A stretch of DNA of 23,397 nucleotides from a virus, in IMG/VR virus record IMGVR_UViG_3300020451_000676, positions 1-23,397 of that record, one strand, 5' to 3'. Positions 5,852-20,258 of the stretch are shown one piece after another. Made by a program: the position numbers and the translations under genes. Numbering within the stretch: position 1 is the first letter of the stretch; each line of letters opens with the position of its first letter. Below the pieces are notes generated by a model. That model was given only the letters and a program-made list of their open reading frames with translations, had not been told where the DNA came from and ran no database searches.

Positions 5852-6634
5852 ATGGCAGTTTATTCAAGCTATAAAAAAATTGATGGGTCTACTTTACCTG
5901 CTGGTAGTGTTACTGCTGGTAAATTAAATGCCACTGGATTGGATACATGGAATGTTAAATGGGTCTATGGTGATCCTAACCCATGTACTTCAGGTTGCTG
6001 TTGTTTATGGACAGTTCCTGCAGGAGTAGCAAGAATTACTTTTGAAATTTGGGGTGCTGGAGGAAATGGACACGGATCATGCTCATGTAACCGTTGTCAA
6101 ATATATGCAGGTTCCCAAGGTGGGTACTATGCTACAAGAACTATTGATACAGCTCCAGGATGTTCTTATACAGTCTGTGCTGCTGGTGTATACCGTTGTT
6201 ACTCAAGAGAGTGTACGGGGTGTTGTGGATGTATGTCATATGTAAATGGTTTTAACTTATCTAACTTCTGTGCTATTGGTGGTAGAGGTGCTTGTGCTCA
6301 GGGTAACTGGTCATATGCATGCTACTCTAACAATGCTTGCTGCCGAGGTCCTAATGATAACGGAGCAGAATTTGGAATGGGTAACATGCCTGGTGGATTC
6401 TGGAACCCAAGAGGTGTATTCTGTCACTGCCACGGTAGATTTAATATTCCTACTGCTGCACCATTTATTGGTACTAACGTCTTTACAAACCAAAACTTCT
6501 GTTGGGTTCGTTGTGGATGCTGGACTGTACCATACGGACATGGTGGACAGAGTGCTATGACCAACTATTGTGAACGCTGTTGCGGTCAAGGTGGTACTGG
6601 TGGTCCAGGACTTGTTAAGATTACATACGTTTGA
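5852..6634 (+). CDS. Cysteine-rich, glycine-rich fibre-tip-like protein, copy 3
   Basis: This is the third tandem paralogue, 260 residues with 27 cysteines by my count. It has the same N-terminal SYKKI segment and the same Cys framework as copies 1 and 2. The variable region is again between the NLSNFCAIGG motif and W.RCGCW, here with GACAQGNW and ACCRGPNDNG stretches. It starts 11 bases after copy 2 with AAAGGAC 7 bases from the ATG, the best-placed ribosome site of the three. The stop lies just before a terminator-like hairpin, so the three genes form one transcription unit from the late promoter at 4220. The tandem arrangement suggests duplication and divergence of a receptor-contacting protein (inference). 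Confidence 0.75.
   Translation: MAVYSSYKKIDGSTLPAGSVTAGKLNATGLDTWNVKWVYGDPNPCTSGCCCLWTVPAGVARITFEIWGAGGNGHGSCSCNRCQIYAGSQGGYYATRTIDTAPGCSYTVCAAGVYRCYSRECTGCCGCMSYVNGFNLSNFCAIGGRGACAQGNWSYACYSNNACCRGPNDNGAEFGMGNMPGGFWNPRGVFCHCHGRFNIPTAAPFIGTNVFTNQNFCWVRCGCWTVPYGHGGQSAMTNYCERCCGQGGTGGPGLVKITYV
6566..6603 (+). repeat. 38-bp near-identical repeat, copy 3
   Basis: This copy is identical to the repeat at 4962-4999 in the first paralogue, although the flanking codons differ. That fits recent exchange or strong constraint on the YCERCCGQGGTGG motif. Confidence 0.8.
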
Positions 6635-6744: not shown

Positions 6745-7455
6745 ATGGCTACTAACATTAGCGTCGAATACGACCTCCCACTACCAAACGATTACATGGT
6801 AGACCATGCTTTTACCGATGGTAAAACACGTAAATCCACATATGATGGACCTGATAAAATTTGGTTACAGATTGGTGCAGACGGCACAGAAAAAGCTGGA
6901 CCTTTAAACGAAGACGATATATTAGATGGTCGTCCAATGCCCGCTGACGTAGTGGAGTGGAAAGAAATTGATTGTGCAACTAATCCACTTATCTGTCAGT
7001 TAAGAGGTATGCCTATTGATGAGAAAGAAGAAGACTATACTGATAGTGCTACTTGTTCAATCACTCCTGCAGTATCTGGATATCCTCAGTGTACATATGG
7101 AACACCATTGATGCCTGGTGACATCTATGATAGAGATAGTGTTAAAGTTGTAGGTGGTAGCGTTACTATCCAACCATTTACTGCTATTGGTAAGTTACTT
7201 GATAGAGAAACTGATCTTACTTGGGATGATATCAGGAAGCACAGACAGAATGCTCTCCAAGCAACTGATGGTAAGGTTACAGAAGATATGCCAACTGATC
7301 TTAAAGAGAAGTGGAAGACATATCGCCAGAAGTTAAGAGACTTCCCTGCTACAATGGCAGCAGCAAGTGTTACACCTAATGGTGCATACTACATGATGCC
7401 ATTATCACCTGACGATGAGGTTCTTCCAACAAATGGTGGACTAGCTATTAGTTAA
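6745..7455 (+). CDS. Tail-fibre-assembly-chaperone-like phage protein
   Basis: This 236-residue protein probably helps assemble or attach the fibre proteins encoded just upstream. Its C-terminal part (about residues 155-205) reads LTWDDIRKHRQ...LKEKWKTYRQKLRDFP. This fits the pattern R..R...L......W..YRQ.LRD.P, typical of phage tail-fibre assembly chaperones (DUF4376/TAC-like). The following PNGAYYMMPLSPDDE tail is Pro/Asp-rich. The N-terminal half contains an acidic, Tyr/Trp-containing segment (KIWLQIGADGTEKAGPL, DVVEWKEID) and a small Cys cluster (near 77, 84, 104 and 116). It has its own late promoter after a terminator. Assignment rests on the C-terminal pattern and location; it could instead be a virion protein carrying this domain. 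Confidence 0.6.
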   Translation: MATNISVEYDLPLPNDYMVDHAFTDGKTRKSTYDGPDKIWLQIGADGTEKAGPLNEDDILDGRPMPADVVEWKEIDCATNPLICQLRGMPIDEKEEDYTDSATCSITPAVSGYPQCTYGTPLMPGDIYDRDSVKVVGGSVTIQPFTAIGKLLDRETDLTWDDIRKHRQNALQATDGKVTEDMPTDLKEKWKTYRQKLRDFPATMAAASVTPNGAYYMMPLSPDDEVLPTNGGLAIS

Positions 7456-7471: not shown

Positions 7472-8014
7472 ATGAATGAAAAATTTAAGATTTATAAATT
7501 TGATTACATAAAAGAAAACCAAGCAGAGATTATAAAGGTGGCATCTGATTGTCACCGTTCTCTGGTAGAAGACGGATTCGGGGACACAACCTGGAGTTAT
7601 TATCTGTATAATATCTTCAGTGTCACCAGTCCGTCTATTCATTTCTGGAATATTTTTAAGTATTTACGTGGTATTATTAAAGAGAATGTAGAGGATGAGA
7701 GGTGCTGGTTCCAAGCATGGTTAAATTATCATGACCATAATCAGGTTTTAGATTGGCATAATCATTCTGCACCTTGGCATGGTTACATTGCATTAGAACC
7801 ACAGGACACCACAACACAATTTGGTGATTGGGAAGTTAAGAATGAGACAGGTAATATATATTTTGGTAGAGGGAATGTTCGTCATAGAGTGGTGAATGAT
7901 TCCTACTATACAGGTAAGAGACTTACTATTGGGTATGATGTAATACCTGAGAGTACATTTACTAATATTAATGCACGGGCAACCAAACAATATGGTGCTA
8001 TGCCCTTGCTTTAG
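7472..8014 (+). CDS. 2-oxoglutarate/Fe(II)-dependent oxygenase-like protein (first of four)
   Basis: This 180-residue protein looks like a small double-stranded-beta-helix oxygenase, which couples 2-oxoglutarate decarboxylation to hydroxylation of a substrate. Likely Fe ligands are in WHNH (residues 95-98) and RHRV (His138), with Arg150 in KRLTIGYDV as the expected 2-oxoglutarate carboxylate binder. The strand between them (GYIALEP...GNIYFGRGNVRH) has the usual DSBH alternation. It lies between the chaperone-like gene (16-base gap) and the late promoter of the sugar operon, so it may be cotranscribed with the chaperone gene. No good ribosome site precedes the ATG. Substrate unknown: free metabolite, sugar, or a residue of a virion protein. 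Confidence 0.65.
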   Translation: MNEKFKIYKFDYIKENQAEIIKVASDCHRSLVEDGFGDTTWSYYLYNIFSVTSPSIHFWNIFKYLRGIIKENVEDERCWFQAWLNYHDHNQVLDWHNHSAPWHGYIALEPQDTTTQFGDWEVKNETGNIYFGRGNVRHRVVNDSYYTGKRLTIGYDVIPESTFTNINARATKQYGAMPLL

Positions 8015-8039
8015 TTGACAAAATACCCTATAATAAGGG

Positions 8040-8047
8040 GATAAATA
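8040..8047 (+). promoter_or_regulatory. T4-type late promoter of the sugar-tailoring operon
   Basis: GATAAATA matches the NATAAATA late core and lies 34 bases before the GT9 ATG at 8081. It is the only recognisable promoter I found for the 9-kb run of + strand genes ending at 17244, which would make this operon a late one. Confidence 0.6.
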
Positions 8048-8080: not shown

Positions 8081-9250
8081 ATGAGATCGAAGGCGTTTTT
8101 TGTTAATGGTGGAGCTGGCAGAGTGATTTGTTCCATACCTGCGTTTGAAAAGTATGCAGAAACACACGATGATTTTGTCATTGTATGTGAGGGAGGGACA
8201 GACTTTTTTAAAGGTCATCCAAAATTAGATGGTAAAGTATATGATAACTGGCATAAGGGATTATTCCAAACACAATTAAAAGATAGGGATATAATATCTA
8301 CAGAACCATACAGAGTATGGGAATATTATAATCAGAAGTGTAGTCTTGCACAGGCATATGATATTCAAATCAATGAGTTAGATGAACCAAGAGAACTTCC
8401 AGTTCCTAGAATTGAACTAGCAAAGATGGAAGCTATCCAAGGTTTTAATGCAGTAGAGGAAGTAAGAAAGGGAACAGGTAAAGAAAAGATTTTGGTTGTT
8501 CAACCTTTTGGTAGGTCAGTTGAACAAGTTGGTGGTGATTTTATTGCTGATATTACTTCACGTAGTTTTCCTTTGAATGGTATTGTTGAAATTATTAATG
8601 AACTTAAAAAGGATTATGGTATCATTATAATGAGTGAGATTCATTTTCCACTTGAAGAGAATGAAGAGAAGGCAAAGATAAAAGTTGCAAGACCAGAGAT
8701 TCAGGACATGAGGACATGGGCAGGTGTTATTAATGCAGCAGATCACTTCTTAGGATGTGATAGTATGGGGCAGCATCTTGCTAAGGCATTTGGTAAGACT
8801 GCCACAGTTGTAACTGGATCAACATATCCAGTTAATATATCTTATCCTGACTGTAAGGATTTTGATATCATTGATGTAGGAGAGGGAAGGAGACAGTACT
8901 CACCTATTAGACTTACTACTGATGAAAGAGTTGATCGTTTTAATGATCAAGCAATGGAACTTGATAAGGATCAAATAAGATCTATACTTACTTCTGTTCG
9001 TAAGAGAATGGGTAAGTCAACTGCTTATACAAATTATAATAAGACTGCTGCCCCACAGCAGAACGATTGTTGTGCTCCAAAAATGGGTATGGGTGGAGGA
9101 AGTTCATCCCCTTCTTATGGTGTTCCAAAGGGAACTAATAAACCACAATTAAAACCATCATCAAGTAAAGGTTTTATGGCAGATGTTAAGAACGCATCTC
9201 AACAAAAGGTAGAAGGTCAAGTACAGGATATTTTAAAGAATCTTAAGTGA
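8081..9250 (+). CDS. Glycosyltransferase family 9-like (heptosyltransferase-type) protein
   Basis: This 389-residue GT-B fold protein would transfer a sugar, by family likely an ADP-heptose-derived one, to an acceptor. The N-terminus MRSKAFFVNGGAGRVICSIPAFEKYA resembles the GT9 start with its G-x-GD/GR turn and following helix. The C-terminal donor half has VVQPFGRSVEQ (about 138-148) and DHFLGCDSMGQHLAKAFGKTATVVTGSTYP (about 222-251). The latter is the GT9 pattern of D-S-x-x-x-H-L-A, small residue, G, then a hydrophobic strand ending in G-x-T-x-P. After residue 310 comes a non-family tail rich in Ser, Gly, Gln and Lys, including CC and MGMGGGSSS. GGAG at 8069-8072 lies 8 bases from the ATG. 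It opens the operon containing HldC-, HldA- and HAD-type genes, which supports a heptose donor; donor and acceptor are inferred. Confidence 0.65.
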   Translation: MRSKAFFVNGGAGRVICSIPAFEKYAETHDDFVIVCEGGTDFFKGHPKLDGKVYDNWHKGLFQTQLKDRDIISTEPYRVWEYYNQKCSLAQAYDIQINELDEPRELPVPRIELAKMEAIQGFNAVEEVRKGTGKEKILVVQPFGRSVEQVGGDFIADITSRSFPLNGIVEIINELKKDYGIIIMSEIHFPLEENEEKAKIKVARPEIQDMRTWAGVINAADHFLGCDSMGQHLAKAFGKTATVVTGSTYPVNISYPDCKDFDIIDVGEGRRQYSPIRLTTDERVDRFNDQAMELDKDQIRSILTSVRKRMGKSTAYTNYNKTAAPQQNDCCAPKMGMGGGSSSPSYGVPKGTNKPQLKPSSSKGFMADVKNASQQKVEGQVQDILKNLK

Positions 9251-9260
9251 GGTTTATATA

Positions 9261-11057
9261 ATGACTCAATGGATTGCAGCTCTTGCTAGAGGGCATAACT
9301 CTGGTGTATGTTTACTTAAAGATGGTGAGATAGTATTCTCTACTGAGGAAGAGAGATTTACTAGGAATAAGTATGATGGTGGACCATTGGCATCAATGGT
9401 TAAAATTTTAGATTATACTGACCATGTTGATTACCTTGTGATTGCTCACACTCAACCTCTAAGTGATGCTGGTAAGATAGATTTCTCTGGTGAGGATATC
9501 TATACTGGATTTGCTAGGAAGTTGGGTTTGATTAATCGTAAAGAGAATTGTTATGATCATCCTCAAGTTATAGATCTTAGTAGAACACATCATAAACTTC
9601 ATGCTGCTTGTGCATTTTATCGTTCTGGATTTGAATCAGCAGTAGCAGTTGTAGTAGATGGTGCAGGTACTTTTGTTCCAATGAACATTGGTGGTCAAGA
9701 ACCAGAGATGACATGGGAACTTGAGTCTATGTTTACTTGTGATTATCCATCAGAATTTAAAACAATCTATAAGCACATGGCAGGTAGAGGACCGTGGGGT
9801 TCTGCACATATACCTGAGATGGATAGTGAAGGTGAAGGTGAGGAAGGAACACATGAATTATTCTTAGATGAGAGTGCTGGTATTGTTAAAGCATACGAAG
9901 CAGTGACTCAGTATTGTGGTTGGTCTCCTATAGAAGCAGGTAAGACAATGGGATTGTTCCCATATGGCGAACCAACTGATAAGGTTCCAACGATTTATAC
10001 TGATGGTGGCGGGGGAGCATGGAAGACAAGTGATCGTAATGTAATAGTTCCTACATATCCAAATGGTGCTGTAGTTAATGAAGGTAGATATGAATATCTT
10101 AGGACACCTCAAGGTACTGAAGATCTAACTAAACTTCAGAACCGTAGAGATGTTGCCTATGCTATTCAAACAGAATCACAGCAGATGGTTCTTGATTTAA
10201 TTCGTAAGGCAGTTGAGATGACTGGCAATAAGAATGTAGTATTGTCTGGTGGATATGGATTAAATTGTGTTGCAAACTATTGGTATCTTGAACAGTTAAA
10301 GGGTGAAGGTATTAATTTGTTTGTTGAACCAGTAAGTAATGATGCTGGTACTGCTCTTGGAGCAGGATTATATGTACATCATCAAGTAAATGAAGACATG
10401 AAAATTAAAGAAAGGATTACAAATTTATACACTGGTCCTACATATAACTATACAACGGAAGAGATCTCTGAGTCTTGTCAAAAGTATGGTGCAACTAATG
10501 TAACTAGTGCATCTTATGATGATGTAGTTAAATTAATTACTAATAAGAATATAGTTGCAATGTTCCAAGGATCATCTGAAGCAGGTCCAAGAGCACTTGG
10601 TAATCGTTCTATCCTATATGATCCTCGTGATAAAGACGGTAAGGATTTTGTTAATAGTGTAAAGCATCGTGAATACTTCAGACCATTTGCAGGTTCTATT
10701 TTAAAAGAACATGTACATGAGTGGTTTGATCTTCGTGGTATGGATGACACTCCATTTATGATGTATGCTGTGAAGTGTCAACCAGGAATTGAAGAGAAGA
10801 TACCTTCTATCATTCATGTTGATGGTACTTGTCGTATACAAACTGTAACTGAAGACGTTAACGCACATTACTATGGACTCATCAAGGAATTCTTTGAACA
10901 GACTGGTTGCCCTATCATCTTTAATACTTCCTTTAATTTGGGTGGAGAACCTCTGGTTGAAACACTCGATGATGCGTTACGGACTCTTGCTAATAGTGAT
11001 ATTGAGTATCTATATCTTCCTGAGTACGATCTATTGATAGAGGTTAAGAATCAATGA
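9261..11057 (+). CDS. O-carbamoyltransferase, NodU/CmcH/TobZ family, full length
   Basis: This 598-residue enzyme would transfer a carbamoyl group from carbamoyl phosphate, via carbamoyl-adenylate, to a hydroxyl of a sugar or small molecule. The N-terminal Kae1-like domain shows ARGHNSG (9-15), EEERFTRNK (29-37), HHKLH (110-114, the metal-binding HxxxH), VVDGAG (131-136), GKTMGLFPYG, SGGYGLNCVANY (about 328-340) and EPVSNDAGTALGAG (about 355-368). The C-terminal YrdC-like domain has GSSEAGPRALGNRSIL (about 437-452), HREYFRPFA, HVDGTCRIQTV and NTSFNLGGEPLVET. All the expected blocks are present, so it should be active. It starts 10 bases after the GT9 stop and overlaps the next gene by ATGA, which implies translational coupling. 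The acceptor is probably the sugar made by this cluster (inference). Confidence 0.92.
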   Translation: MTQWIAALARGHNSGVCLLKDGEIVFSTEEERFTRNKYDGGPLASMVKILDYTDHVDYLVIAHTQPLSDAGKIDFSGEDIYTGFARKLGLINRKENCYDHPQVIDLSRTHHKLHAACAFYRSGFESAVAVVVDGAGTFVPMNIGGQEPEMTWELESMFTCDYPSEFKTIYKHMAGRGPWGSAHIPEMDSEGEGEEGTHELFLDESAGIVKAYEAVTQYCGWSPIEAGKTMGLFPYGEPTDKVPTIYTDGGGGAWKTSDRNVIVPTYPNGAVVNEGRYEYLRTPQGTEDLTKLQNRRDVAYAIQTESQQMVLDLIRKAVEMTGNKNVVLSGGYGLNCVANYWYLEQLKGEGINLFVEPVSNDAGTALGAGLYVHHQVNEDMKIKERITNLYTGPTYNYTTEEISESCQKYGATNVTSASYDDVVKLITNKNIVAMFQGSSEAGPRALGNRSILYDPRDKDGKDFVNSVKHREYFRPFAGSILKEHVHEWFDLRGMDDTPFMMYAVKCQPGIEEKIPSIIHVDGTCRIQTVTEDVNAHYYGLIKEFFEQTGCPIIFNTSFNLGGEPLVETLDDALRTLANSDIEYLYLPEYDLLIEVKNQ

Positions 11058-11707
11058 TTCATATTGATTGCACAAAAGAAGCGTTAAATTTTGCTAAGTA
11101 TGATCTAGCAGAGGATGAGATATTTGTTATTGATAATTTATTTCCTTGGTGGTTTGTAGAACATCTGGATCAAACAATCCTACATGGATTTGGATGGCAG
11201 TATGGATTATGTAGTAGTCATAAAAATAATCCAGATGGTACACCAGACATGGATTATGATAAGGGTACAGATTTAGAATCAGAAGTTCCTTGTTTTAAAC
11301 AATCAATCTACCCACCAAGATCGGAATCTGCACAGGACAGTGCATATCAAATGCTATACAAGGCAGTAACTAAAACTATTCCTTTTGACTTAGAGTTGGG
11401 TGAGATATTAGTTAATGGACAACAATATATACATGATACTCTTATACATACAGACTGCAATTGTGATAATGGACTTAGTTGGATCTACTATGTTAATAAA
11501 AGATGGGAAGATAAATGGGGTGGTCCAACAATAGTTGAATTTAATGGAGAGAATGTAGAGATACTTCCTTCGCCAGGAAGAATTGCTTTTTTTAAAGGTA
11601 ACATTCCACATAGAGGAGCACCACCAAATGGTGATCACTATCATGGACTAAGAGCAACTCTAGTCTATAAAACAATGCGTAAAAACCCTTTACCTGCTAG
11701 AACATGA
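11054..11707 (+). CDS. 2OG-Fe(II) oxygenase, prolyl-hydroxylase-like (second of four)
   Basis: This 217-residue protein carries a clear HxD...H...R iron and 2-oxoglutarate set: HTD (His132, Asp134), His186 in the GNIPHRG segment, and Arg200 in LRATLVYK. Between them LSWIYYVNKRW..KWGGPTIVEF and EILPSPGRIAFFKG follow the prolyl 4-hydroxylase-like core (hydrophobic strand, GG, E/T.F, then P..GR...F). It would hydroxylate a substrate or be adapted for another radical oxidation. It overlaps the carbamoyltransferase stop and the halogenase start by ATGA on each side, so the three products are probably made in fixed ratio and act on the same product. Substrate unknown. Confidence 0.8.
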   Translation: MIHIDCTKEALNFAKYDLAEDEIFVIDNLFPWWFVEHLDQTILHGFGWQYGLCSSHKNNPDGTPDMDYDKGTDLESEVPCFKQSIYPPRSESAQDSAYQMLYKAVTKTIPFDLELGEILVNGQQYIHDTLIHTDCNCDNGLSWIYYVNKRWEDKWGGPTIVEFNGENVEILPSPGRIAFFKGNIPHRGAPPNGDHYHGLRATLVYKTMRKNPLPART

Positions 11708-13230
11708 TTAATAAATTTGTAATCGTCGGAGGTGGAACCTCTGGATGGATAACTGCCATGTCTCTTTTTAGAGAGATGGAGAACTGTGAAATATATCTTA
11801 TTGATAAAGGTCAAAATGACTCTGTAGGTGTTGGAGAAGCAACTCTATTAGGTTTTGATGATTTTATGAGTGGATATTGTGATTTTGATGAGAAGGAATG
11901 GAAGAAAGCATTAGATGCAGTTCCTAAAGCAGGTATATTATTTCCAGGTTGGGGTAAAGCATCAGATCAAATTTGGCATCCATTTTATTTTCCACAGATT
12001 AGAGACGTACCTATATGGGATGCTTTGTCACACACTGATGAATCTATTCGTGAATATCTTCCTTTATATGATTCTAGTATGAAGAATGAAGTTGATCCTG
12101 GTGATATAGAATTCATGCAGGACGGTAAAAAGACAAGTTCATATGCATGGCATGTTGATTGTGGTAAGTTAGTTACTTATATTAAAAATTTTTTAGAGAC
12201 ACACTGCCCTACCTTCTCATATATTGAAGGTGAGGTTGGTAATATTAATAGATGGGAAGATGGTAGTATTCGTAGTTTAGTTTGTAAGCATGGTGAAGAA
12301 ATTGCTGGAGATGTTTTCTTTGATTGTAGTGGGTTTAAGAGTATACTTAAAGACCATAGAGACAAAGTAGATTTAAAGGGTCGTTTGTTTGTTGATACTG
12401 CTGTTGCTGGACACATACCATATTTAAATGAGGGTGATTGTAAATGTAATGGTGGTGATAATTCTGAGAAGCATCCTTATGTTTCATGTCCTGCTGTAGA
12501 TCATGGTTGGATATGGAAGATACCTTTACAGTCTAGGATAGGATCTGGCATGGTCTTTAATAGAAGTATTACAGATCCAGAAGAAGCAAAGGATTATTTT
12601 GTAGACTATTGGGATGGTAGAGTTGATAGAGATTCGTTATCTATAATTGACTGGTCACCTTATTATGATAAGAACATATGGGATAAGAATGTTATATCTA
12701 TTGGGTTAGCTGCTGGGTTCATTGAACCATTAGAGAGCACTGGTGTTGCTTTAATTATTGAAGGAGTGTGTAAAGCAACTGAGATATTAAAGGGAAGATA
12801 TTTTAATAACTTTGATATTGATATCTACAATGCATACCTAGTTAATTTGTTTGAGAACTGTGCTGACTTTGTATCTATGCATTATGATTTGAGTATACAT
12901 GAGTCTAAGTTTTGGGATTATGTGAGAGATACCTTTGAACCATCTGATTATCAAAGGTTGTTCAAAGATAATATTAATAGTCCTGCAACATCAATTGTTG
13001 AAGGTAAACCAGGAATGTTTGGTGGATCTAATTGGCTTTATTGGATGCTTCAGATGGGATATCCCACATCAGTTAAGTCGGAACCATCTCCTTTAGTTGG
13101 TATAAAATTAATTGATGACTATAAGAATCATATTAAAAAGATGTATGAGGAGATTCCTTCTGTACCATTGAATGAATATCTTAAGGGTGTCGGAAGTAAG
13201 TCAAAAATACGCATCGTTCCTCAAAATTAA
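11704..13230 (+). CDS. FAD-dependent halogenase (tryptophan-halogenase family)
   Basis: This 508-residue flavoprotein would use FADH2, O2 and halide to halogenate an electron-rich compound. The N-terminal Rossmann motif is VIVGGGTSGW (6-15), followed by GVGEAT (42-47). Lys75 in the VPKAGILFPGW segment aligns with the catalytic lysine (PrnA Lys79) that carries the haloamine/hypohalous acid. The diagnostic W-x-W-x-I-P motif is WIWKIP (269-274), and GLAAGFIEPLESTG (334-347) matches the active-site/FAD segment with the key Glu344. All halogenase hallmarks are present, so it is not merely a monooxygenase. Cyanophage Syn10 encodes a characterised member, VirX1, reported to iodinate diverse substrates; this gene is probably related. 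The sequence does not reveal the substrate or halide. No flavin reductase is encoded here, so FADH2 would come from the host. ATGA overlap upstream, TAATG downstream. Confidence 0.9.
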   Translation: MINKFVIVGGGTSGWITAMSLFREMENCEIYLIDKGQNDSVGVGEATLLGFDDFMSGYCDFDEKEWKKALDAVPKAGILFPGWGKASDQIWHPFYFPQIRDVPIWDALSHTDESIREYLPLYDSSMKNEVDPGDIEFMQDGKKTSSYAWHVDCGKLVTYIKNFLETHCPTFSYIEGEVGNINRWEDGSIRSLVCKHGEEIAGDVFFDCSGFKSILKDHRDKVDLKGRLFVDTAVAGHIPYLNEGDCKCNGGDNSEKHPYVSCPAVDHGWIWKIPLQSRIGSGMVFNRSITDPEEAKDYFVDYWDGRVDRDSLSIIDWSPYYDKNIWDKNVISIGLAAGFIEPLESTGVALIIEGVCKATEILKGRYFNNFDIDIYNAYLVNLFENCADFVSMHYDLSIHESKFWDYVRDTFEPSDYQRLFKDNINSPATSIVEGKPGMFGGSNWLYWMLQMGYPTSVKSEPSPLVGIKLIDDYKNHIKKMYEEIPSVPLNEYLKGVGSKSKIRIVPQN

Positions 13231-13757
13231 TGAGGAAAAATCTATTTGCTATACCTATCTTTGAAGATAAAGTTGATCTAACTAAAATTCACATAGAGAA
13301 TGGTGAGTACCATCCAACATGGGATAGTGAAGTACATAGTAGTTTTGGTTCTAATACCAATGTACCTGAAGAGACTTGGCAACATATAATGGATGTTGTT
13401 ACTAGGAATATTCAAACCATTGAGTGTTCTTATACAGATGCACGGATTGACAGTCTATGGAGGAACGTATATACTGAGACCGATTATCAAGAACTTCATA
13501 TACATCCACATTGTCAATGGAGTTTTATAATATATGAATCAGTAGAAGTCTCTAAGACTGTGCTACACAACCCTTCCTTTAAGGATATTCAGAATCATAT
13601 GTCTCATAGTGGGATACCAGACTTTCTTTTGGATTATAAACCACAGTTAGAGTCTGGTAGTATAATGATTTTTCCATCTTTTATTATGCATAGTGTTTTG
13701 CATGGTTCTAAAGGTACAACCATAGCAGGTAATGTTAAACTCTCTTATAAACCATGA
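13230..13757 (+). CDS. 2OG-Fe(II) oxygenase-like protein (third of four)
   Basis: This 175-residue protein resembles the small phage 2OG-FeII_Oxy_5-like oxygenases. HIHPH (residues 90-94) supplies the first iron ligand, followed by the strand WSFIIYESVE. Then comes SGSIMIFPSFIMHSV, in which His154 is the distal ligand. The position that normally carries an arginine for 2-oxoglutarate is Lys161 (GSKGTTIAGNV) in place of the family's R-x-S-x-x-x-N, an unusual feature. The start codon overlaps the halogenase stop (TAATG) and the stop overlaps the next start (ATGA). It is likely to tailor the same product as the halogenase; substrate unknown. Confidence 0.7.
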   Translation: MRKNLFAIPIFEDKVDLTKIHIENGEYHPTWDSEVHSSFGSNTNVPEETWQHIMDVVTRNIQTIECSYTDARIDSLWRNVYTETDYQELHIHPHCQWSFIIYESVEVSKTVLHNPSFKDIQNHMSHSGIPDFLLDYKPQLESGSIMIFPSFIMHSVLHGSKGTTIAGNVKLSYKP

Positions 13758-14179
13758 CCTTTTATTCTCCATCTACTAAAGTTTTTGTGAATGGTACGTT
13801 TGATTTAATTCATCGTGGTCATATTGAATTACTTAATTATGCTAAGTCATTAGGTGACAGAGTGTATGTTGGTATTGATAGTGATAGGCGGGTATCCGAA
13901 ATGAAGGGTAATTCTAGACCCATATATAATATGCAAGATAGGAAGTTCTTTCTTGAAAATCTAAAGGCAGTGCATAGAGTCGCAGTCTTTGATAATGATT
14001 CTCAGTTAGCAGCGATGGTTGAGTTTATTAAACCTCATTTTATGGTTGTTGGATCTGATTGGAAGGGTAAGTCAGTCATAGGATCTATGTCTGCTGCTAA
14101 GTTAGTATTCTTTGATAGGGTTGGTGATTATGCAACAACAAAAACAGTACAAGGTATTATTGATAGGAGAGACATGTGA
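13754..14179 (+). CDS. HldC/TagD-type nucleotidyltransferase (ADP-heptose synthase domain)
   Basis: This 141-residue enzyme has the cytidylyltransferase-like fold that joins a nucleotide to a sugar phosphate. It shows VNGTFDLIHRGH (12-23), with the nucleotide-binding HxGH at 20-23, LGDRVYVGIDSD (32-43), MKGNSRPI (49-56), NMQDRKFFLENLKAV, PHFMVVGSDWKGKSVIG (93-109) and YATTKTV (125-131). The order and the G(N/S)RP and DWKGKS-like segments favour the RfaE/HldE C-terminal domain, which makes ADP-D-glycero-beta-D-manno-heptose from heptose 1-phosphate. Length fits a stand-alone HldC. The kinase half, fused upstream in E. coli HldE, is here a separate gene immediately downstream. A glycerol-3-phosphate cytidylyltransferase (TagD) role remains possible; the adjacent HldA-type kinase and HldD make heptose more likely. 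Confidence 0.8.
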   Translation: MTFYSPSTKVFVNGTFDLIHRGHIELLNYAKSLGDRVYVGIDSDRRVSEMKGNSRPIYNMQDRKFFLENLKAVHRVAVFDNDSQLAAMVEFIKPHFMVVGSDWKGKSVIGSMSAAKLVFFDRVGDYATTKTVQGIIDRRDM

Positions 14180-14897
14180 AGATAGTTATATCTTTGGTAG
14201 TGTAGATAGGATAAGTCCAGAAGCACCAGTTCCTGTAGTAAAGCACGAGGAGACTCTTACTGCTCTTGGTATGTCTGAGAATGTTAAAAGGAATCTACAA
14301 GCATTTGGAGTTAGTGTAACTCATATTACTAATAAGAAGTTGATAAAGAAGAAGAGAGTAGTTGATAGTGCTAGTAAGCAACAGTTACTTAGGATTGATT
14401 ATGATGATCATGTTGATCCAATAAAAGCTGCTGAAGTTAAGATGGCATTCCTTTCGTCAGAGTTTGACGCTATTGTTATATCTGATTACGACAAGGGTTT
14501 TGTTACCCTAGAAAATCTCATGACGTTTTGCCAAAATTTTCCAGGTCCAGTCTTTATAGATACTAAGAAGAAGGATTTATTCTCTTGTCAGAATGTTATA
14601 TTTAAGATTAATCAAAGAGAAGCATCTACTTTAAGGGTTCAACCTTCTCCACAAAATTTAATTACAACTGCAGGAGGTCAGGGTGCATGGTATATGGATA
14701 AACTATATCCTAGTGAGAATGTAAATGTATTTGATGTAGTAGGTGCTGGTGATACATTCCTTGCTGCATTGTGTGCTGAATTTTTAAAAGAACATGACAT
14801 GGAAGCATCAATTAAGATAGCTAATAAAGCATCTGCTATTGCGGTACAGAACTATGGATGTTATACCTTAACACCAGAGGATATTCAAAGTTTATGA
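14130..14897 (+). CDS. PfkB kinase, HldA-type (heptose 7-phosphate kinase domain), shortened
   Basis: This 255-residue kinase resembles the N-terminal domain of RfaE/HldE, which phosphorylates D-glycero-D-manno-heptose 7-phosphate. Matches are LIGETCEDSYIFGSVDRISPEAPVPVVK (11-38, close to the RfaE start), QQLLRIDYDD (84-93), ISDYDKG (117-123), DTKKKD (144-149), KINQREA (159-165) and the PfkB signature VVGAGDTF (203-210) with catalytic Asp208. Two oddities are visible. The family GGAANVA segment is replaced by ALGMSENVK (45-53), and about 30 residues between VTHIT and KKK are missing, giving 255 rather than about 315 residues. I chose ATG 14130, not the more upstream ATG 14112, because homology begins just after it. 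It overlaps the nucleotidyltransferase gene by 50 bases, an HldE-like pair in reversed order and split. Sugar specificity may be altered. Confidence 0.78.
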   Translation: MQQQKQYKVLLIGETCEDSYIFGSVDRISPEAPVPVVKHEETLTALGMSENVKRNLQAFGVSVTHITNKKLIKKKRVVDSASKQQLLRIDYDDHVDPIKAAEVKMAFLSSEFDAIVISDYDKGFVTLENLMTFCQNFPGPVFIDTKKKDLFSCQNVIFKINQREASTLRVQPSPQNLITTAGGQGAWYMDKLYPSENVNVFDVVGAGDTFLAALCAEFLKEHDMEASIKIANKASAIAVQNYGCYTLTPEDIQSL

Positions 14898-15895
14898 AGA
14901 CACTTGGTATAAATATGACACACGATGCTTCAGTATGTCAGTGTGATGATGGTGACATTACTACATTCTTGGAAGAAGAACGTCTTACTGGTATAAAGCA
15001 TGATGAATTGCCAGTTAAGTCATTTCATAAAGTAGTTGATCCAGATTCTGTAATAGCATTTACTGGATTAGAATATGCAGATGATTTAGTAGGTGATAAG
15101 GTTAATAATTTTGTTAAATATGTTTTAGCAAAGTCTGAATATGGTGAGCGTAATGTTGATACTTATCTAGAACATCATTTATTACATGCTTATTGTGGTT
15201 TTTATAACTCTGGTTTTAGTAATGCATGTGTTGTAGTTGTTGATGGTATGGGTAACTACGTTGATAATGATCATCATGAGGTTGCAAGTATTTTTCATAT
15301 GACATACCCAACTAGAGCAAAGTTAGTTGGACAACAAGCATGTATTAGATATGACTCTGAGAAGTTAAAGGAAAGAGATGTCCATGACACTTGGCCAATT
15401 GGTATTGGTATGGCATACTCATCAATATCATCTTACCTTGGGTTTGGATCAATGGGTTCTGGTAAAGTAATGGGACTCTCTGCATATGGTGTTGATGATT
15501 CTAATATAAAACCATTTGTCTTAGAGGATGGAACGGTTAACTCTACATTATTCTATAGAACATATGATGGTGCATGTTTTATACCTTATGATTATCTACC
15601 TGATAAGTGGGATTTGAGAGTACAGGATGATAAATTTCAAAGGATTGCTAACCTAACATATAGATTGCAAAAGGACTTTGAACTTCAGATGATAGATACT
15701 ATATTAACTGGTTTAAAAATGACACAATCTAAGAATTTAATAGTGACAGGTGGATGTGCTTTAAATTGTGTTGCAAATTATGAGTACTTGAAATATCTTC
15801 CTGAAAATGTTAAAATGTATGTCGAACCTGTTAGTACTGATGCTGGTACTTCTATTGGGTTGGCAAAATATTTGTATCATACTAAAAACAAATGA
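14894..15895 (+). CDS. N-terminal half of a NodU/TobZ-type carbamoyltransferase (Kae1-like domain only)
   Basis: This 333-residue protein covers only the Kae1-like domain of the carbamoyltransferase family. It retains MTHDAS (8-13), EEERLTGIKHDELP (27-40), HHLLH (94-98) with the metal-binding HxxxH, VVDGMG (115-120), GKVMGLSAYG, TGGCALNCVANYEY and EPVSTDAGTSIG, and stops a few residues after this last block. The YrdC-like C-terminal domain that makes carbamoyl-adenylate is absent, and no remnant of it follows in any nearby frame; the next gene begins at the stop by ATGA overlap. The start at 14894 overlaps the kinase stop (ATGA). It may work with the C-terminal domain of another carbamoyltransferase, act as a pseudo-enzyme, or be a naturally split form. 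The clean junctions argue against random decay. Confidence 0.85.
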   Translation: MKTLGINMTHDASVCQCDDGDITTFLEEERLTGIKHDELPVKSFHKVVDPDSVIAFTGLEYADDLVGDKVNNFVKYVLAKSEYGERNVDTYLEHHLLHAYCGFYNSGFSNACVVVVDGMGNYVDNDHHEVASIFHMTYPTRAKLVGQQACIRYDSEKLKERDVHDTWPIGIGMAYSSISSYLGFGSMGSGKVMGLSAYGVDDSNIKPFVLEDGTVNSTLFYRTYDGACFIPYDYLPDKWDLRVQDDKFQRIANLTYRLQKDFELQMIDTILTGLKMTQSKNLIVTGGCALNCVANYEYLKYLPENVKMYVEPVSTDAGTSIGLAKYLYHTKNK

Positions 15896-16269
15896 GATAT
15901 TGTATAGATATTGACGGAACTATCTGCACACCTGGTGAGGGGTGTGGTACTTGTCAGTATGAAAATGCTACTCCTAAGAAGGATAGGATAGAAGTGGTCA
16001 ATAAATTATATGATGATGGACATTACATCATATACTTTACTGCTCGTGCAATGGGTAGGAATAAAGATAAACCTCTTGCAGAGGCAGCAGCAGTAGCAGA
16101 TGACTTGTTAAGACCTCTTACTCAAGCACAATTAAAGATGTGGGGTGCTAAATATCATGAATTACATATGGGCAAACCACATGCAGATATCTTTATAGAT
16201 GATAAAGCTTCTCCTGACCATGTGTTTTTTAAAGATACTCCTACCAAATCAGGTGGGACTTGTTGGTAA
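15892..16269 (+). CDS. Small HAD-superfamily phosphatase
   Basis: This 125-residue protein has the HAD motifs in order: DIDGT (Asp6, Asp8), FTAR (Thr50), GKPHAD (Lys95) and IDDKA (Asp103, Asp104). Its size, and the C-T-P-G-E-G-C-G-T-C loop after motif I, fit the small capsule/sugar-pathway HAD phosphatases. Between a kinase, a nucleotidyltransferase and an epimerase of heptose type, a natural role is removal of the 7-phosphate from heptose 1,7-bisphosphate, the GmhB step. GmhB itself is longer and has a different zinc loop, so this would be an analogue rather than a clear orthologue. A general phosphosugar or capsule phosphatase role is the alternative. ATGA overlap with the half carbamoyltransferase. 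Confidence 0.8.
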   Translation: MRYCIDIDGTICTPGEGCGTCQYENATPKKDRIEVVNKLYDDGHYIIYFTARAMGRNKDKPLAEAAAVADDLLRPLTQAQLKMWGAKYHELHMGKPHADIFIDDKASPDHVFFKDTPTKSGGTCW

Positions 16270-16272
16270 CCA

Positions 16273-16632
16273 ATGAATACAGATCAACCAATTAAAATAG
16301 TAAACAAAGGGTGGGGACATGAGAAATGGATTGTCAACACTGAAGAGTATTGTGGTAAATTATTATTTTTTGAGGGTGGTAAGAGATGTTCTTGGCATTA
16401 CCACAAGTTAAAAGATGAGACTTTTTATCTACAGTCTGGTAGGATTCTATTATTCTATGGTAAGACTGATGATTTATCTAAGGCAGAGACTAAGATACTA
16501 GAACCTGGAGATACTTTTCATATATTTCGTGGACTAAGACACCAGATGATTGCTATGGAGCACTCTGAATTGTTTGAGTTCTCCACACAGCATTTTGATA
16601 CGGATAGTTATAGAATAATGGTAGGTGATTAG
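16273..16632 (+). CDS. Cupin-fold protein, sugar-isomerase/epimerase-like
   Basis: This 119-residue single cupin has the metal-binding set HxH (WHYH, His42 and His44), Glu49, Gly56, then LEPGDTFHIFRGLRHQM with His90. The opening GWGHEKWIVNTEEYCGKLLFF resembles the cupin domains of type II mannose-6-phosphate isomerase/ManC and of D-lyxose-type isomerases. In this operon it could isomerise a phosphosugar. The GmhA step (sedoheptulose 7-phosphate to heptose 7-phosphate) is the only heptose step without a recognised enzyme here, but linking it to this cupin is speculation. It starts 3 bases after the HAD stop and ends directly against the next ATG, so it belongs to the same operon. Confidence 0.75.
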   Translation: MNTDQPIKIVNKGWGHEKWIVNTEEYCGKLLFFEGGKRCSWHYHKLKDETFYLQSGRILLFYGKTDDLSKAETKILEPGDTFHIFRGLRHQMIAMEHSELFEFSTQHFDTDSYRIMVGD

Positions 16633-17244
16633 ATGAACCTCGTAGATTGCATTGCTGAGTATGACAATATTCTCAGTGATGAGATGTGTGATGTCATGAT
16701 TGATTGGTTCAATGCTAATGAAGAATTACAAGATGATGGTGCTATTGGAACTATAGAGGGGGAAGGTGTAGTTAATAATAAGATAAAAAAATCAAGACAA
16801 AGTTATCCTCATCCAGAAGATTCAATATCTGATTTAATGACTGAGGTAATTAAAAAGACTTACAGAGAATACAAGAAGGATCATTTTGTACCAGAAGATT
16901 CATCTATGATAGCGGTAAGAGATTATTCTATTAGAGTTTATGATAAAAATGACGGACACTTCTTACGTCATATGGATCAAGCAGGTGTTGCAAGTAGACT
17001 CTTTGCTATTATAATGTACCTTAATACAGTTGATCAGGGTGGTGAGACTGAGTTCTCAGATCATAATATTAAAATTAAACCAGAGAAGGGTAAGGTATTA
17101 ATATTTCCATGCAATTTTATGTTCTATCATCAAGGTAACACACCTATCTCTGGGGATAAATGGATTGCTACTGCTTTTATTAACCTTGTAATTCCTACTG
17201 CTACTAATACTCCTAAGAAGGAACCAGTTAAGATAAGTTATTAA
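16633..17244 (+). CDS. Prolyl 4-hydroxylase-like 2OG-Fe(II) oxygenase (fourth of four)
   Basis: This 203-residue protein is the closest of the four to prolyl 4-hydroxylases. It shows IRVYDKNDGHFLRHMDQ with HxD at His113/Asp115, then FAIIMYLNTVDQGGETEF (124-141, the YLN...GGET.F core), IKPEKGKVLIFPCNFMFYHQGNTPISGDKWIATAFI with His166, and Lys176 as the 2-oxoglutarate ligand. T4-like cyanophages often carry such genes. Substrates could be a protein side chain, for instance in the fibre proteins, or a sugar/metabolite made by the operon. TAG-ATG abutment links it to the cupin gene. Its last 17 bases overlap the end of hldD on the opposite strand. Confidence 0.88.
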   Translation: MNLVDCIAEYDNILSDEMCDVMIDWFNANEELQDDGAIGTIEGEGVVNNKIKKSRQSYPHPEDSISDLMTEVIKKTYREYKKDHFVPEDSSMIAVRDYSIRVYDKNDGHFLRHMDQAGVASRLFAIIMYLNTVDQGGETEFSDHNIKIKPEKGKVLIFPCNFMFYHQGNTPISGDKWIATAFINLVIPTATNTPKKEPVKISY

Positions 17245-18019
17245 TATATTCTTCAACAGTAGTAAAATTATAATTACCCCACTCTTTTTTAGCACGAGTA
17301 TATTTTTGATACTTTCCTTCTAGATGTTTTGGGAATGGGATATATTCTATCTCTGCATTATATTTCTTAGCAATTATTTCTCCAACTTTTTGGAAGCTAA
17401 TAGGATTACTTGTTCCTAGATCATAGATTCCAGATGGTTTATCATTGTTTAAGACGTGATGTATGATGTCTTTCACACAAATAAAATCTCTAATAAAATT
17501 CTCAGATCCTTCAAACAGTTTTAGTTTACCTGTCTCTTTAACTTGTTCTGTAAATGTTTGTATCGGACTTGCTTGATTACCTTTATGGTCTTCACCTTGC
17601 CCATATACATTGAAGTATCTAAACCCCTGAACTAATTTAAACTCATCTATATGATCTTGAACCCAGTAGTCTGTGATTACTTTGGTTATTGCGTAGTAGT
17701 TGAGTGGATTGATTACGTTAAGACTCTTACCATACACTGATGCAGAGGATGCATACTTGACTGGTATCTTATATTTGATTGCGTTGTTTAATAACCACTC
17801 TGTAAATGCAACGTTTGTGTTGATGAGTAATTCAAGATCTGTACAGGTTGTAGAAGAGATAGCACCTTGATGTATTATTAGTGTTACTTTCTCCCATTCA
17901 GTAAATTTTTTAATAAAGTCTTGACAATTATCCTTCTCAACTTCTATTACTTCTTCATTCCTTAATGCTTTGAGGAAGTTTTGTCCAATGAATCCTTTTG
18001 AACCTGTAAGTATTATCAT
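17228..18019 (-). CDS. hldD: ADP-L-glycero-D-manno-heptose 6-epimerase
   Basis: This 263-residue short-chain dehydrogenase/epimerase converts ADP-D-glycero- to ADP-L-glycero-beta-D-manno-heptose. The NAD(P) motif is GSKGFIG (6-12), SSASVYG (91-97) precedes the catalytic YAITK (Tyr109, Lys113), and the C-terminal half has several blocks specific to HldD/RfaD: GFRYFNVYG...HKG..AS (132-151), KLFEGSENFIRDF (167-179), SGIYDLGT, SFQKVGEI and IEYIPFPKHLEGKYQ. These match E. coli HldD as I recall it far better than other epimerases. It is about 45 residues shorter than E. coli HldD, mostly in the N-terminal half. AAAAGAAG lies just before the ATG at 18019. It is convergent with, and overlaps, the oxygenase gene at 16633-17244, and is the only heptose gene on the minus strand. 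Confidence 0.9.
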   Translation of the reverse strand: MIILTGSKGFIGQNFLKALRNEEVIEVEKDNCQDFIKKFTEWEKVTLIIHQGAISSTTCTDLELLINTNVAFTEWLLNNAIKYKIPVKYASSASVYGKSLNVINPLNYYAITKVITDYWVQDHIDEFKLVQGFRYFNVYGQGEDHKGNQASPIQTFTEQVKETGKLKLFEGSENFIRDFICVKDIIHHVLNNDKPSGIYDLGTSNPISFQKVGEIIAKKYNAEIEYIPFPKHLEGKYQKYTRAKKEWGNYNFTTVEEYINNLS

Positions 18020-18085: not shown

Positions 18086-19984
18086 ATGTCATTTGGAAAA
18101 TTAGCAAATGTTAAGCCAGAGACGGCTAAGTTAAATCAATTACTATATACTGCTCCAGCGGATACGTTGACTCAAGGTAAAGTATATGTCACGAACCAAA
18201 CTCCTTCGACGATTTATGTTAGGGTTGGACTCGCCACTGCAGGTGGATTAGATTCTTTTAAAGCGAATGGATATGTAACATTTGATCAGGAAATAAAAGT
18301 CGGAGAGTATTTTGAATCCGATCCTCTTTATTTTGCTGATGGAGATAGTGTAGTCATCAGATCTACAGATACAAGTTCTGCGTTTACATTTATTGGAGAA
18401 GAGAGTCCTAATATAGGTGGTGCAGGATTCCTAGCGCAAGGATTTTCTACTGCAGATAATGGAGCTGATTTACTATTTGAATTCCCAACAGGTAAGAGTT
18501 TTAGGGGTAATTTATTTGTTTGTAACAAGTCTTCTGGTGATAGTAAGGTTCGTGTAGGTCTTGGTACAACTGCGACTGACTATCTAGAATATAATTATGA
18601 GGTAGAGCGTAACTCAACCCATGTTAGGTCTGATATATCAGCAAAACCTGGTGATCAGATGTATGTTCGTGCTGACTCGATTCGTGAGACTGAGCATACT
18701 ATACAAGGTATAACATACAATCCTAATACAGGATTTATGACCATTCAGATCAATGCACATAAATTTGTTGATACTGATAGGGTATATCTTAAAGGTGAGT
18801 CTGTTGTATTAACCTGTGCTAAGGATGATTATCTTACAAAGCATTACTATCCAAGATCGACTGACCCAATCTATAATAAGTGGATTCCCATTTATAATGT
18901 TACAACTAACACGTTTGATATTCAGGTGTTGGATGTTATTCCATCTACTAACGTAACTGATCATAAATTTATATCAGCACATACTAATGGACTGAGAAGG
19001 ACTACTGGTGCTGTAAACTTTGTTCTTAGTGGATATTATGTAGACTATCAACACTTCTACGGTTCTGTTGGTATTGGATCTACATTAACTGCGACCAATG
19101 CTTACATTAAAGAGGGTCTTGGTATTGGTGTTACTTATCCAGGTTCTTATGGACTTAAAGTTATTGGTGACACATCACTTTCTAAGTTAGATATTACTGA
19201 TGACCTTCATGTACAAGGTAATGTACAGACTGTTGGTGTATCTACCTTTGCTGGTACTGTAACCTTCCAAGGTGGTACTGTAAACACTGGTGTTGGTACA
19301 GAGAACGCAGTTGTTCTTGATGCTAACGTTAACTCAAACATTACTCCAGGTGTTGCTAACTCCTTTGACTTAGGTCAAGACTCTAAGAGGTGGAGGTATG
19401 TATATTATGCTGATACACTTAGAGGTAATCAGATTGATTTAAGTAATGGTACTACTGGTATAGCAACTATTGGTGTTGGTTTTGGTGCTACTACAACTCA
19501 AGCAATCATTGGTGCTGCTAACACAGCAGTCATGGCATTTGGTGACATTGGTATTAATGGAGACCTTGTTCTTAAAGGACAGATTGGTATTGGTACAACA
19601 ACTGTAAATCAATTAGCATATGATGCCACTACAGATGAACTACAAGTCTTTAACAAGTCTCTTAATAGAAATGTACCTATACATGGTGTAGATACTAACT
19701 ATTATACTGTAACAAGTAACACTACTGTTACATCTTGGTCAACAGTTATGGTAGATACCCTCGGTGGTACATTTACTGTTACTTTACCAGCATCTCCAGT
19801 ACAAGGAGATAGGATTAGGTTTATAGATTATAAGAAGAACTTTGATACTGCTGCTCTAACGATTGGTAGAAATGGTAAACCAATCATGGGTGATGGTGCA
19901 GATATGACAGTTAATACTGAAGGTGCTGCCTTTGAGTTAATGTTCTGGGACAATACCTCTGGTTGGTGCTTGATGAATGTATAA
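18086..19984 (+). CDS. Second phage fibre/virion structural protein sharing domains with the large fibre
   Basis: This 632-residue protein begins with two related beta domains (about 1-110 and 118-205), each with an RVGL-type strand (YVRVGLATA, KVRVGLGTT) and a phrase on a D-S/D-Q plus V.RS/VRADS turn. Residues about 205-305 are the domain also found at 112-212 of the large fibre (TGFMTIQINAH...LTCAKD...YPRSTDPIYNKWIPI...FDIQVL). Then come fibre-type repeats (GVSTFAGTVTFQGG, NSFDLGQDSKRWRYVYYAD, GATTTQAIIGAAN). The last roughly 75 residues are the same cap as in the large fibre (IGRNGKPIMG, NTEGAAFELMFWDN.SGW). It has its own late promoter. Probably a virion protein acting with the large fibre or sharing its attachment site (inference). 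Confidence 0.8.
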   Translation: MSFGKLANVKPETAKLNQLLYTAPADTLTQGKVYVTNQTPSTIYVRVGLATAGGLDSFKANGYVTFDQEIKVGEYFESDPLYFADGDSVVIRSTDTSSAFTFIGEESPNIGGAGFLAQGFSTADNGADLLFEFPTGKSFRGNLFVCNKSSGDSKVRVGLGTTATDYLEYNYEVERNSTHVRSDISAKPGDQMYVRADSIRETEHTIQGITYNPNTGFMTIQINAHKFVDTDRVYLKGESVVLTCAKDDYLTKHYYPRSTDPIYNKWIPIYNVTTNTFDIQVLDVIPSTNVTDHKFISAHTNGLRRTTGAVNFVLSGYYVDYQHFYGSVGIGSTLTATNAYIKEGLGIGVTYPGSYGLKVIGDTSLSKLDITDDLHVQGNVQTVGVSTFAGTVTFQGGTVNTGVGTENAVVLDANVNSNITPGVANSFDLGQDSKRWRYVYYADTLRGNQIDLSNGTTGIATIGVGFGATTTQAIIGAANTAVMAFGDIGINGDLVLKGQIGIGTTTVNQLAYDATTDELQVFNKSLNRNVPIHGVDTNYYTVTSNTTVTSWSTVMVDTLGGTFTVTLPASPVQGDRIRFIDYKKNFDTAALTIGRNGKPIMGDGADMTVNTEGAAFELMFWDNTSGWCLMNV

Positions 19985-20012: not shown

Positions 20013-20258
20013 ATGAATATGAACTTTGCCGTTTACTCTAAAGATGGATGCCCATATTGTGATAAAATAGTACAACTTCTTGAGTTAGGTGACCTCAAGC
20101 ATGTTGTGTATAAATTAGATCAACATTTTGATAAGAAGGCATTCTATCAAGAGTTTGGTGATGGTTCTACCTTCCCACAAGTTGTAGTTGATGGTAAGAA
20201 ACTTGGTGGTTGTGCTTCTGCTGCCAACTATTTACAAGAGAATAAACTTATAGTCTAG
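20013..20258 (+). CDS. Glutaredoxin
   Basis: This 81-residue thiol-disulfide oxidoreductase has the CPYC active site (13-16), the cis-proline TFPQVVVDG motif (53-61) and the glutathione-binding KKLGGC segment (62-67). T4 (NrdC) and cyanophages encode similar glutaredoxins that reduce ribonucleotide reductase or proteins with reactive thiols. A second ATG two codons in (20019) is an equally possible start, and no strong ribosome site is seen. TATAAATG at 19980-19987 is one base off the late promoter core and may drive it. Its stop overlaps the minus-strand bilin reductase by 11 bases. An additional link to folding of the Cys-rich virion proteins is speculative. Confidence 0.92.
   Translation: MNMNFAVYSKDGCPYCDKIVQLLELGDLKHVVYKLDQHFDKKAFYQEFGDGSTFPQVVVDGKKLGGCASAANYLQENKLIV

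Follow-up and report, generated by a model that had tools for sequence, protein, structure and literature searches.

A tail-fibre-linked operon of T4-like cyanophages with predicted heptose-pathway, carbamoyltransferase, oxygenase and halogenase genes

In this study, we analysed an eleven-gene operon (positions 8,081 to 17,244) on a stretch of viral DNA of 23,397 bases, IMG/VR virus record IMGVR_UViG_3300020451_000676; this whole stretch is referred to as the window. The source is a T4-like cyanophage, and the isolates closest to it are Sf-FS3 and S-SSM7. The gene order in the window is FIB1, GLYa to GLYc, APC, OX0, the eleven-gene operon, EPI on the minus strand, FIB2, glutaredoxin, a bilin reductase gene on the minus strand, and CT2. 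The operon and its fibre-related surroundings comprise the following features:

6-4166: FIB1, fibre
4248-5030, plus strand: GLYa, Cys/Gly-rich fibre-tip paralogue, proposed acceptor (PF21722, Gly_rich_2)
5046-5840, plus strand: GLYb, Cys/Gly-rich fibre-tip paralogue, proposed acceptor (PF21722, Gly_rich_2)
5852-6634, plus strand: GLYc, Cys/Gly-rich fibre-tip paralogue, proposed acceptor (PF21722, Gly_rich_2)
6745-7455, plus strand: APC, tail assembly chaperone-like (PF16778)
8006-8034, plus strand: sigma-70-like element TTGCTT-17-TATAAT, kept in the close clade (loci L007-L014)
8040-8047, plus strand: late promoter motif GATAAATA, matching the cyanophage late consensus NATAAATA (PMC2984593)
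8081-9250, plus strand: GT9-fold glycosyltransferase, heptosyltransferase-like by predicted fold (phrog_8954, unknown function)
9261-11057, plus strand: CT1, two-domain O-carbamoyltransferase (PF02543 and PF16861)
11054-11707, plus strand: OX1, 2-oxoglutarate (2OG)-Fe(II) oxygenase (PF13640; HxD...H...R motif)
11704-13230, plus strand: HAL, flavin-dependent halogenase (PF04820, 277 bits)
13230-13757, plus strand: OX2, 2OG-Fe(II) oxygenase (PF13759)
13754-14179, plus strand: HldC-like heptose-1-phosphate nucleotidyltransferase (TIGR02199, 106 bits)
14130-14897, plus strand: HldE domain I-like heptose-7-phosphate kinase (TIGR02198, 152 bits)
14894-15895, plus strand: CTh, half carbamoyltransferase, N-domain only (PF02543 only)
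15892-16269, plus strand: small HAD phosphatase, candidate heptose bisphosphatase (catalytic residues and match to PDB 9iqw)
16273-16632, plus strand: CUP, cupin, candidate phosphoheptose isomerase (metal ligands and profile match to 2y0o)
16633-17244, plus strand: OX3, prolyl 4-hydroxylase (P4H)-like 2OG oxygenase (PF13640, 50 bits)
17228-18019, minus strand: EPI, HldD-like nucleoside diphosphate (NDP)-heptose 6-epimerase, convergent with the operon (TIGR02197, 210 bits)
18086-19984: FIB2, fibre

The first-pass annotation had described eleven translationally coupled genes between fibre genes. All eleven are present on a single strand and without stops, with FIB1 and GLYa-c before and FIB2 after them. 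The coupled junctions are as described except between HldC and the kinase; the latter most plausibly starts at ATG 14130, which gives a 50-base overlap instead of ATGA. GT9 and CT1 are separated by 10 bases, the -4 junctions (ATGA) are CT1/OX1, OX1/HAL, OX2/HldC, kinase/CTh, and CTh/HAD, HAL/OX2 is a -1 junction (TAATG), and the gaps of HAD/CUP and CUP/OX3 are 3 and 0 bases, respectively. Profile matches agreed with the family assignments, GT9 apart. The unit turned out to be larger than proposed, as it includes the antisense epimerase gene, which had been overlooked, and the upstream fibre-tip genes.

GT9 relatives are encoded on 448 IMG/VR stretches, of which the best 80 were fetched; the synteny table holds 91 loci, and 63 distinct GT9 loci were obtained. 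Linkage was counted in GT9-seeded loci with at least 2.5 kb upstream (57) or with enough downstream sequence (52). Fibre-tip genes were located upstream in 57 of 57 loci, and CT1 followed GT9 in 51 of 52, directly adjoining it in 43 of them. Reciprocally, GT9 was found downstream in all 54 fibre-tip-seeded loci that have 4 kb or more of sequence after the seed, at a median distance of 1.05 kb (some contigs are common to both seed sets). Among annotated phages, a related portal gene is present in about 480 cyanomyovirus-like records, of which 23 cyanophage or marine virus records carry GT9; a detectable fibre-tip relative occurs in 13 phage records, each of which also has GT9.

The cassette GT9-CT1-HldC-kinase-HAD-cupin with the antisense epimerase occupies the same position in P-SSM2, S-CAM1, and S-CAM3. 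It stands in the same place in S-SSM7, with a halogenase, oxygenases, a methyltransferase, and a CTh-like gene inserted, and in Sf-FS3, with oxygenases and CTh inserted; position and strand of the epimerase gene are identical in all five phages. Instead of being scattered and unrelated in close relatives, the genes are syntenic as a cassette, and across the 91 loci the inserts vary and GT9, CT1, and the fibre tips are constant. The operon is part of a widespread T4-like cyanophage module, and we regard it as virtually certain that this module is real and fibre-linked. A cellular origin of GT9 was rejected, since the only five genome matches are phage-like contigs binned into metagenome-assembled genomes (L178-L182). 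In these, GT9 adjoins a carbamoyltransferase in five of five contigs, and phage fibre genes are present in four of five; their labels are Rhodobacteraceae, Euryarchaeota, Flavobacteriales, and Gammaproteobacteria.

The window contains five copies of ATAAATA, all of them on the plus strand and fewer than the 10.5 expected by shuffling; four of these sites immediately precede GLYa, APC, GT9, and FIB2, and the fifth is inside CTh. In the relatives, NATAAATA, a documented cyanophage late promoter (PMC2984593), was detected upstream of GT9 in 48 of 61 loci, of APC in 51 of 56, and of FIB2 in 18 of 27, compared to 5.6, 3.6, and 2.5 loci expected under a Markov model. It was absent upstream of CT1 in all 63 loci, and the other internal operon genes have at most one occurrence each. 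The late motif at 8040-8047, which had been taken for the single recognisable promoter of the operon, is thus conserved, but it is not alone: the close clade also keeps the sigma-70-like element at 8006-8034, and a similar match beside the late motif was found in ten more distant loci. Late timing of the operon is suggested by motif conservation and by the documented promoter, with the reservation that the sigma-70-like -10 adjoins the late motif.

Searches by sequence, including a profile search of PDB, gave zero Pfam, NCBIfam or PDB matches for GT9, and its label stands by predicted fold. The AlphaFold (AF2) model (predicted local distance difference test score, pLDDT, of 80, with a disordered tail) has a GT-B fold, and its top Foldseek matches, GT9 proteins among them, are 3tov (E 3e-10), TibC (4rap), WaaF (1psw), and WaaC (2gt1). 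TibC is a protein heptosyltransferase, and WaaF and WaaC are lipopolysaccharide (LPS) heptosyltransferases. The model therefore suggests that GT9 is a heptosyltransferase-like glycosyltransferase. Its donor-site motif D227-x4-H232 is invariant. The four-Cys iron finger of BAHT enzymes was not found in an alignment of 46 sequences, in which only C87 is invariant among the cysteines.

Judged by sequence, the kinase, the nucleotidyltransferase, the HAD phosphatase, and the antisense HldD-like epimerase would form an NDP-heptose pathway. Curated models assign the kinase, the nucleotidyltransferase, and the epimerase to the adenosine diphosphate-heptose pathway (scores listed above). In L056, L060, and their relatives, which form a divergent group, a fused HldE (264 bits), GmhB (146 bits), HldD (241 bits), and a cupin lie beside GT9-CT1. 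Three further contigs (L067, L070, L076) have a separate antisense operon halogenase-halogenase-HldE-epimerase-cupin about 20 kb from GT9, and L044 has cupin-oxygenase-HldC-kinase-epimerase 13 kb away. An HldE-type kinase and an HldD-type epimerase were found in 15 of 16 GT9 contigs, including those in which they are 13-20 kb distant, and the remaining contig is a 36 kb fragment. The pathway thus persists although its genes differ in form and arrangement, which argues against chance co-location, and we consider it probable that the module makes NDP-heptose. Other cyanophage-like contigs also contain a compact second operon of the order halogenase-halogenase-HldE-epimerase-cupin, encoded on the opposite strand (L092, 8254-13725, minus strand).

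Among 24 phage genomes or contigs, none was found to encode the isomerase GmhA (SIS fold). The GmhA reaction is a ketose-aldose isomerisation, and sugar isomerases of the cupin fold exist. All 16 named cyanophage and marine virus records with the kinase also have a cupin gene. The metal ligands H42, H44, E49, and H90 of the cupin are invariant, D-lyxose ketol-isomerase (2y0o) is among its profile matches (E 2.3e-6), and PF01050 was detected in 4 of 29 sequences. By analogy, the cupin is likely a replacement of GmhA, i.e. a candidate phosphoheptose isomerase. The catalytic residues of the small HAD protein are invariant as well, and it matches capsule-biosynthesis HADs (PDB 9iqw, E 6.5e-19). 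Public cyanophage records misname this protein "phosphoheptose isomerase", a name that we rejected on account of the invariant HAD catalytic motifs, and the cupin is misnamed "nucleotidyltransferase" or "cysteine dioxygenase" (GenBank T4-GC 306 and 307; L005, 19055-19769).

Among the tailoring enzymes, CT1 is complete with a Kae1-like N-domain and a YrdC-like C-domain, and its PDB relatives are TobZ, GdmN, and 7xb6 (E 5e-55). CTh lacks the C-domain and is 30% identical to the N-domain of CT1. HAL keeps the flavin-binding (FAD) motif GGGTSGW and the PrnA residues K79 and E346 (K75 and E344), while the free-tryptophan pocket of PrnA is not kept (H101 replaced by P97, F103 by I99). A free-tryptophan halogenase serving antibiotic synthesis was rejected, given the lost pocket residues and zero partner genes. 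A related possibility is that the operon yields a soluble halogenated and carbamoylated small molecule or sugar nucleotide, active in the cell or after lysis, and that the fibre adjacency reflects shared late transcription. Carbamoyltransferases of the TobZ, GdmN, and novobiocin type and PrnA-type halogenases do serve mostly natural-product pathways. However, genes that build a scaffold (non-ribosomal peptide synthetase, polyketide synthase, terpene) are not present, the tryptophan pocket is lost, and the strict reciprocal fibre-tip linkage would be left unexplained, so that we consider a soluble product quite improbable.

Halogenase genes are also found near fibre genes elsewhere. In syn9, a near relative of Syn10 from which the halogenase VirX1 originates, the genes after those for fibre assembly encode two halogenases and 2OG oxygenases, and in Sf-CH11 halogenases and 2OG oxygenases stand directly after tail-fibre or structural genes, in both cases without GT9. 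The P-SSM2 halogenase adjoins tail-fibre assembly genes, and P-TIM40 has a tandem halogenase pair among unannotated genes. The halogenase-oxygenase sets behind fibre or structural genes without GT9 suggest that the halogenase is part of the tailoring linked to the fibre and not of the heptose route. They would also fit two systems on one transcript, a fibre-modifying set of GT9, CT1, halogenase, and oxygenases plus a self-standing NDP-heptose route with its use elsewhere, as would the contigs with kinase, epimerase, and cupin 13-20 kb from GT9; heptose genes are missing beside the syn9 set. Yet the kinase and the epimerase accompany GT9 at any distance in nearly all contigs, and the fold of GT9 is that of heptosyltransferases; we regard two separate systems as improbable. 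For the OX1 family (11054-11707; L005, 14960-15514), the PHROGs label (phrog_274) is "DNA endonuclease V" and the label in S-SSM7 is "denV"; this is probably a misannotation, as OX1 of the window fits a 2OG-Fe(II) oxygenase model.

The proposed acceptors, GLYa-c, contain about 10% cysteine, with many Cys conserved. The best match of the fibre-tip AF2 model (pLDDT 74) is the fibre of cyanophage Pam3 (7ypx, E 1.6e-6), and the Bxb1 tail tip is matched as well; a further similarity of the fold is to the glycine-rich domain found in the receptor kinases ALK/LTK.

From the computed families, the predicted folds of GT9 and the fibre tip, the late motif, the linkage, and the conservation of the heptose set, we infer reactions, sugar, order of steps, and acceptor as follows. 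The cupin, in place of GmhA, would convert sedoheptulose-7-phosphate, which is abundant in a Calvin-cycle host, to D-manno-heptose-7-phosphate. The HldE-like kinase would then phosphorylate C1, the HAD protein would remove the 7-phosphate, and the HldC-like enzyme would form NDP-heptose, after which C6 may be epimerised by the antisense HldD-like enzyme. The acceptor of the heptose transferred by GT9 would be a tail-fibre protein of the phage, with the Cys/Gly-rich tips encoded just upstream as the most likely candidates, and CT1 would carbamoylate a sugar hydroxyl. Finally, the 2OG oxygenases, the halogenase, and CTh, which are variable between relatives, would act on fibre residues or on the glycan in additional modification steps and thereby diversify the fibre tip. 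We give an even chance to the general scheme, in which the module makes heptose and attaches it to fibre proteins and the fibre or its glycan is carbamoylated, hydroxylated, and halogenated. The virion fibre as acceptor is likewise an evenly balanced assignment. More tentative, and rather doubtful in its full detail, is the specific version in which the fibre tips are glycoproteins with a phage-made carbamoylated heptose, the tip is also hydroxylated and halogenated, the pathway uses the cupin for GmhA, and relatives swap the tailoring genes.

The first-pass annotation had placed the product on the virion or on the host surface. A virion product is favoured, though on inference, by the reciprocal fibre-tip linkage, by an operon in which no membrane protein, transmembrane segment or exporter was found, and by cyanobacterial LPS cores reported to be free of heptose (PMC4390846). 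The published idea for the "LPS" genes of P-SSM2 is instead a role at the host surface, and both Sullivan 2010 and the Millard/Clokie review class these genes as LPS synthesis (PMC3037559, PMC2984593). Heptose would then be put on LPS or capsule of the infected host late in infection, against superinfection or grazing, or against progeny sticking to debris. In line with this, S-SM2 and Sf-CH8 carry the same sugar genes in glycosyltransferase-rich clusters away from fibres. The fibre-linked cassette, however, has one glycosyltransferase, and flippase, polymerase, ligase, and membrane protein were not found in it; moreover, its constant partner is a fibre-tip gene, and late expression gives little time for surface remodelling. 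A host-LPS role fits less well here than a virion role, and we consider it rather unlikely. A reading as anti-phage defence was dropped after zero PADLOC matches.

Several observations weigh against modification of the fibre by phage-made heptose. GT9 is identified by fold only, with template modelling scores of about 0.45-0.52 and about 12% identity. In a hand alignment to WaaC, the usual first-loop catalytic Asp (WaaC D13) corresponds to an invariant Arg (R14, 41 of 41), and the mechanism of GT9 may therefore differ from the usual one. The scores of the kinase, HldC, and HldD do not reach the NCBI equivalog cut-offs (274.6 for TIGR02197), the cupin profile also matches non-isomerase cupins at similar E-values, and the small HAD is no orthologue of GmhB, true GmhB being found in the divergent lineages. 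The heptose gene set occurs without GT9 in the LPS-like clusters of S-SM2 and Sf-CH8, which points to further uses of the sugar. With 70 halogenase records, the halogenase is not bound to GT9, and that of Syn1 lies away from fibres. The synteny could persist merely through block inheritance of fibre and operon. Lastly, earlier expression of the operon is possible, because the adjoining sigma-70-like element is kept in the close clade and recurs in the ten distant loci.

The combination of genes had been noted as unfamiliar. This is true of the unit as a whole: fibre linkage, complete heptose route, cupin as isomerase, and halogenase/oxygenase tailoring were not found described as one unit in the literature searched. 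The sugar genes, in contrast, are part of published cyanophage "LPS clusters" (T4-GC 304, 305, 307, 308; PMC3037559). The clusters of P-SSM2, S-SSM7, and S-SM2 contain the same families, and those of P-SSM2 and S-SSM7 are the same cassette in the same place. They were published as LPS genes or stuffer DNA of unknown use, and fibre linkage, late promoter, and GT9-CT1 core were not found stated in these accounts. Genes for polymer assembly and export, expected of an LPS cluster, are missing from the window cassette, which encodes one glycosyltransferase and zero transmembrane segments.

Other known systems share single aspects with the module. The BAHT protein heptosyltransferases TibC and AAH resemble it in the GT9 fold, in nearby heptose donor genes, and in a neighbouring surface adhesin as acceptor (PMC4358343). 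In contrast to them, GT9 of the window lacks the conserved four-Cys iron finger and the canonical catalytic Asp, the proposed acceptors are phage fibres, and carbamoyl, hydroxyl, and halogen tailoring is added. In mycobacteriophages, phage-encoded enzymes are proposed to decorate virion proteins (PMC11256854); the window phage also brings a nucleotide-sugar pathway and several tailoring enzymes. VirX1, the flavin halogenase of cyanophage Syn10 (PDB 6qgm), belongs to the same superfamily as HAL (E 7e-36), but HAL is only about 27% identical to the Syn10 copy and sits within a heptose operon. Tang et al. 2024 presented a viral NDP-heptose kinase and nucleotidyltransferase (PMC11461863); as summarised there, the study reported no viral phosphatase, whereas here the small HAD and GmhB are put forward as phosphatase candidates, together with a likely destination.

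We know of no established target of viral halogenases such as VirX1. Whether cyanophage "LPS" genes are functional or stuffer DNA was left undecided by Sullivan 2010 (PMC3037559), and so was the viral use of heptose enzymes in the commentary on the 2024 work (PMC11461863). The fibre linkage provides one testable answer for "LPS" genes, viral heptose enzymes, and viral halogenases alike, namely the phage's own tail fibre. If this is true, fibre chemistry would add a dimension to host recognition or defence evasion to which sequence-based host-range prediction is blind. With a carbamoylated-heptose, halogenated tip, viral halogenases of this group would act on their own fibres and not on host tryptophan.

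The remaining features of the window are:

7472-8014, plus strand: OX0, small oxygenase-like, upstream neighbour of GT9 (oxygenase reading by eye only)
20013-20258: glutaredoxin
20248-20943, minus strand: ferredoxin-dependent bilin reductase (PF05996), a known cyanophage auxiliary gene
20982-22589: CT2, third carbamoyltransferase, two-domain

OX0 has zero Pfam matches; nonetheless, the gene is kept in many relatives. No tRNA genes were found in the window, and a tRNA-borne insertion was rejected on this basis. The glutaredoxin gene is located near the Cys-rich fibre-tip genes. The bilin reductase gene has its own late motif upstream in eight of eight relatives, while the window copy is without one, and CT2 is kept after glutaredoxin and bilin reductase in relatives.

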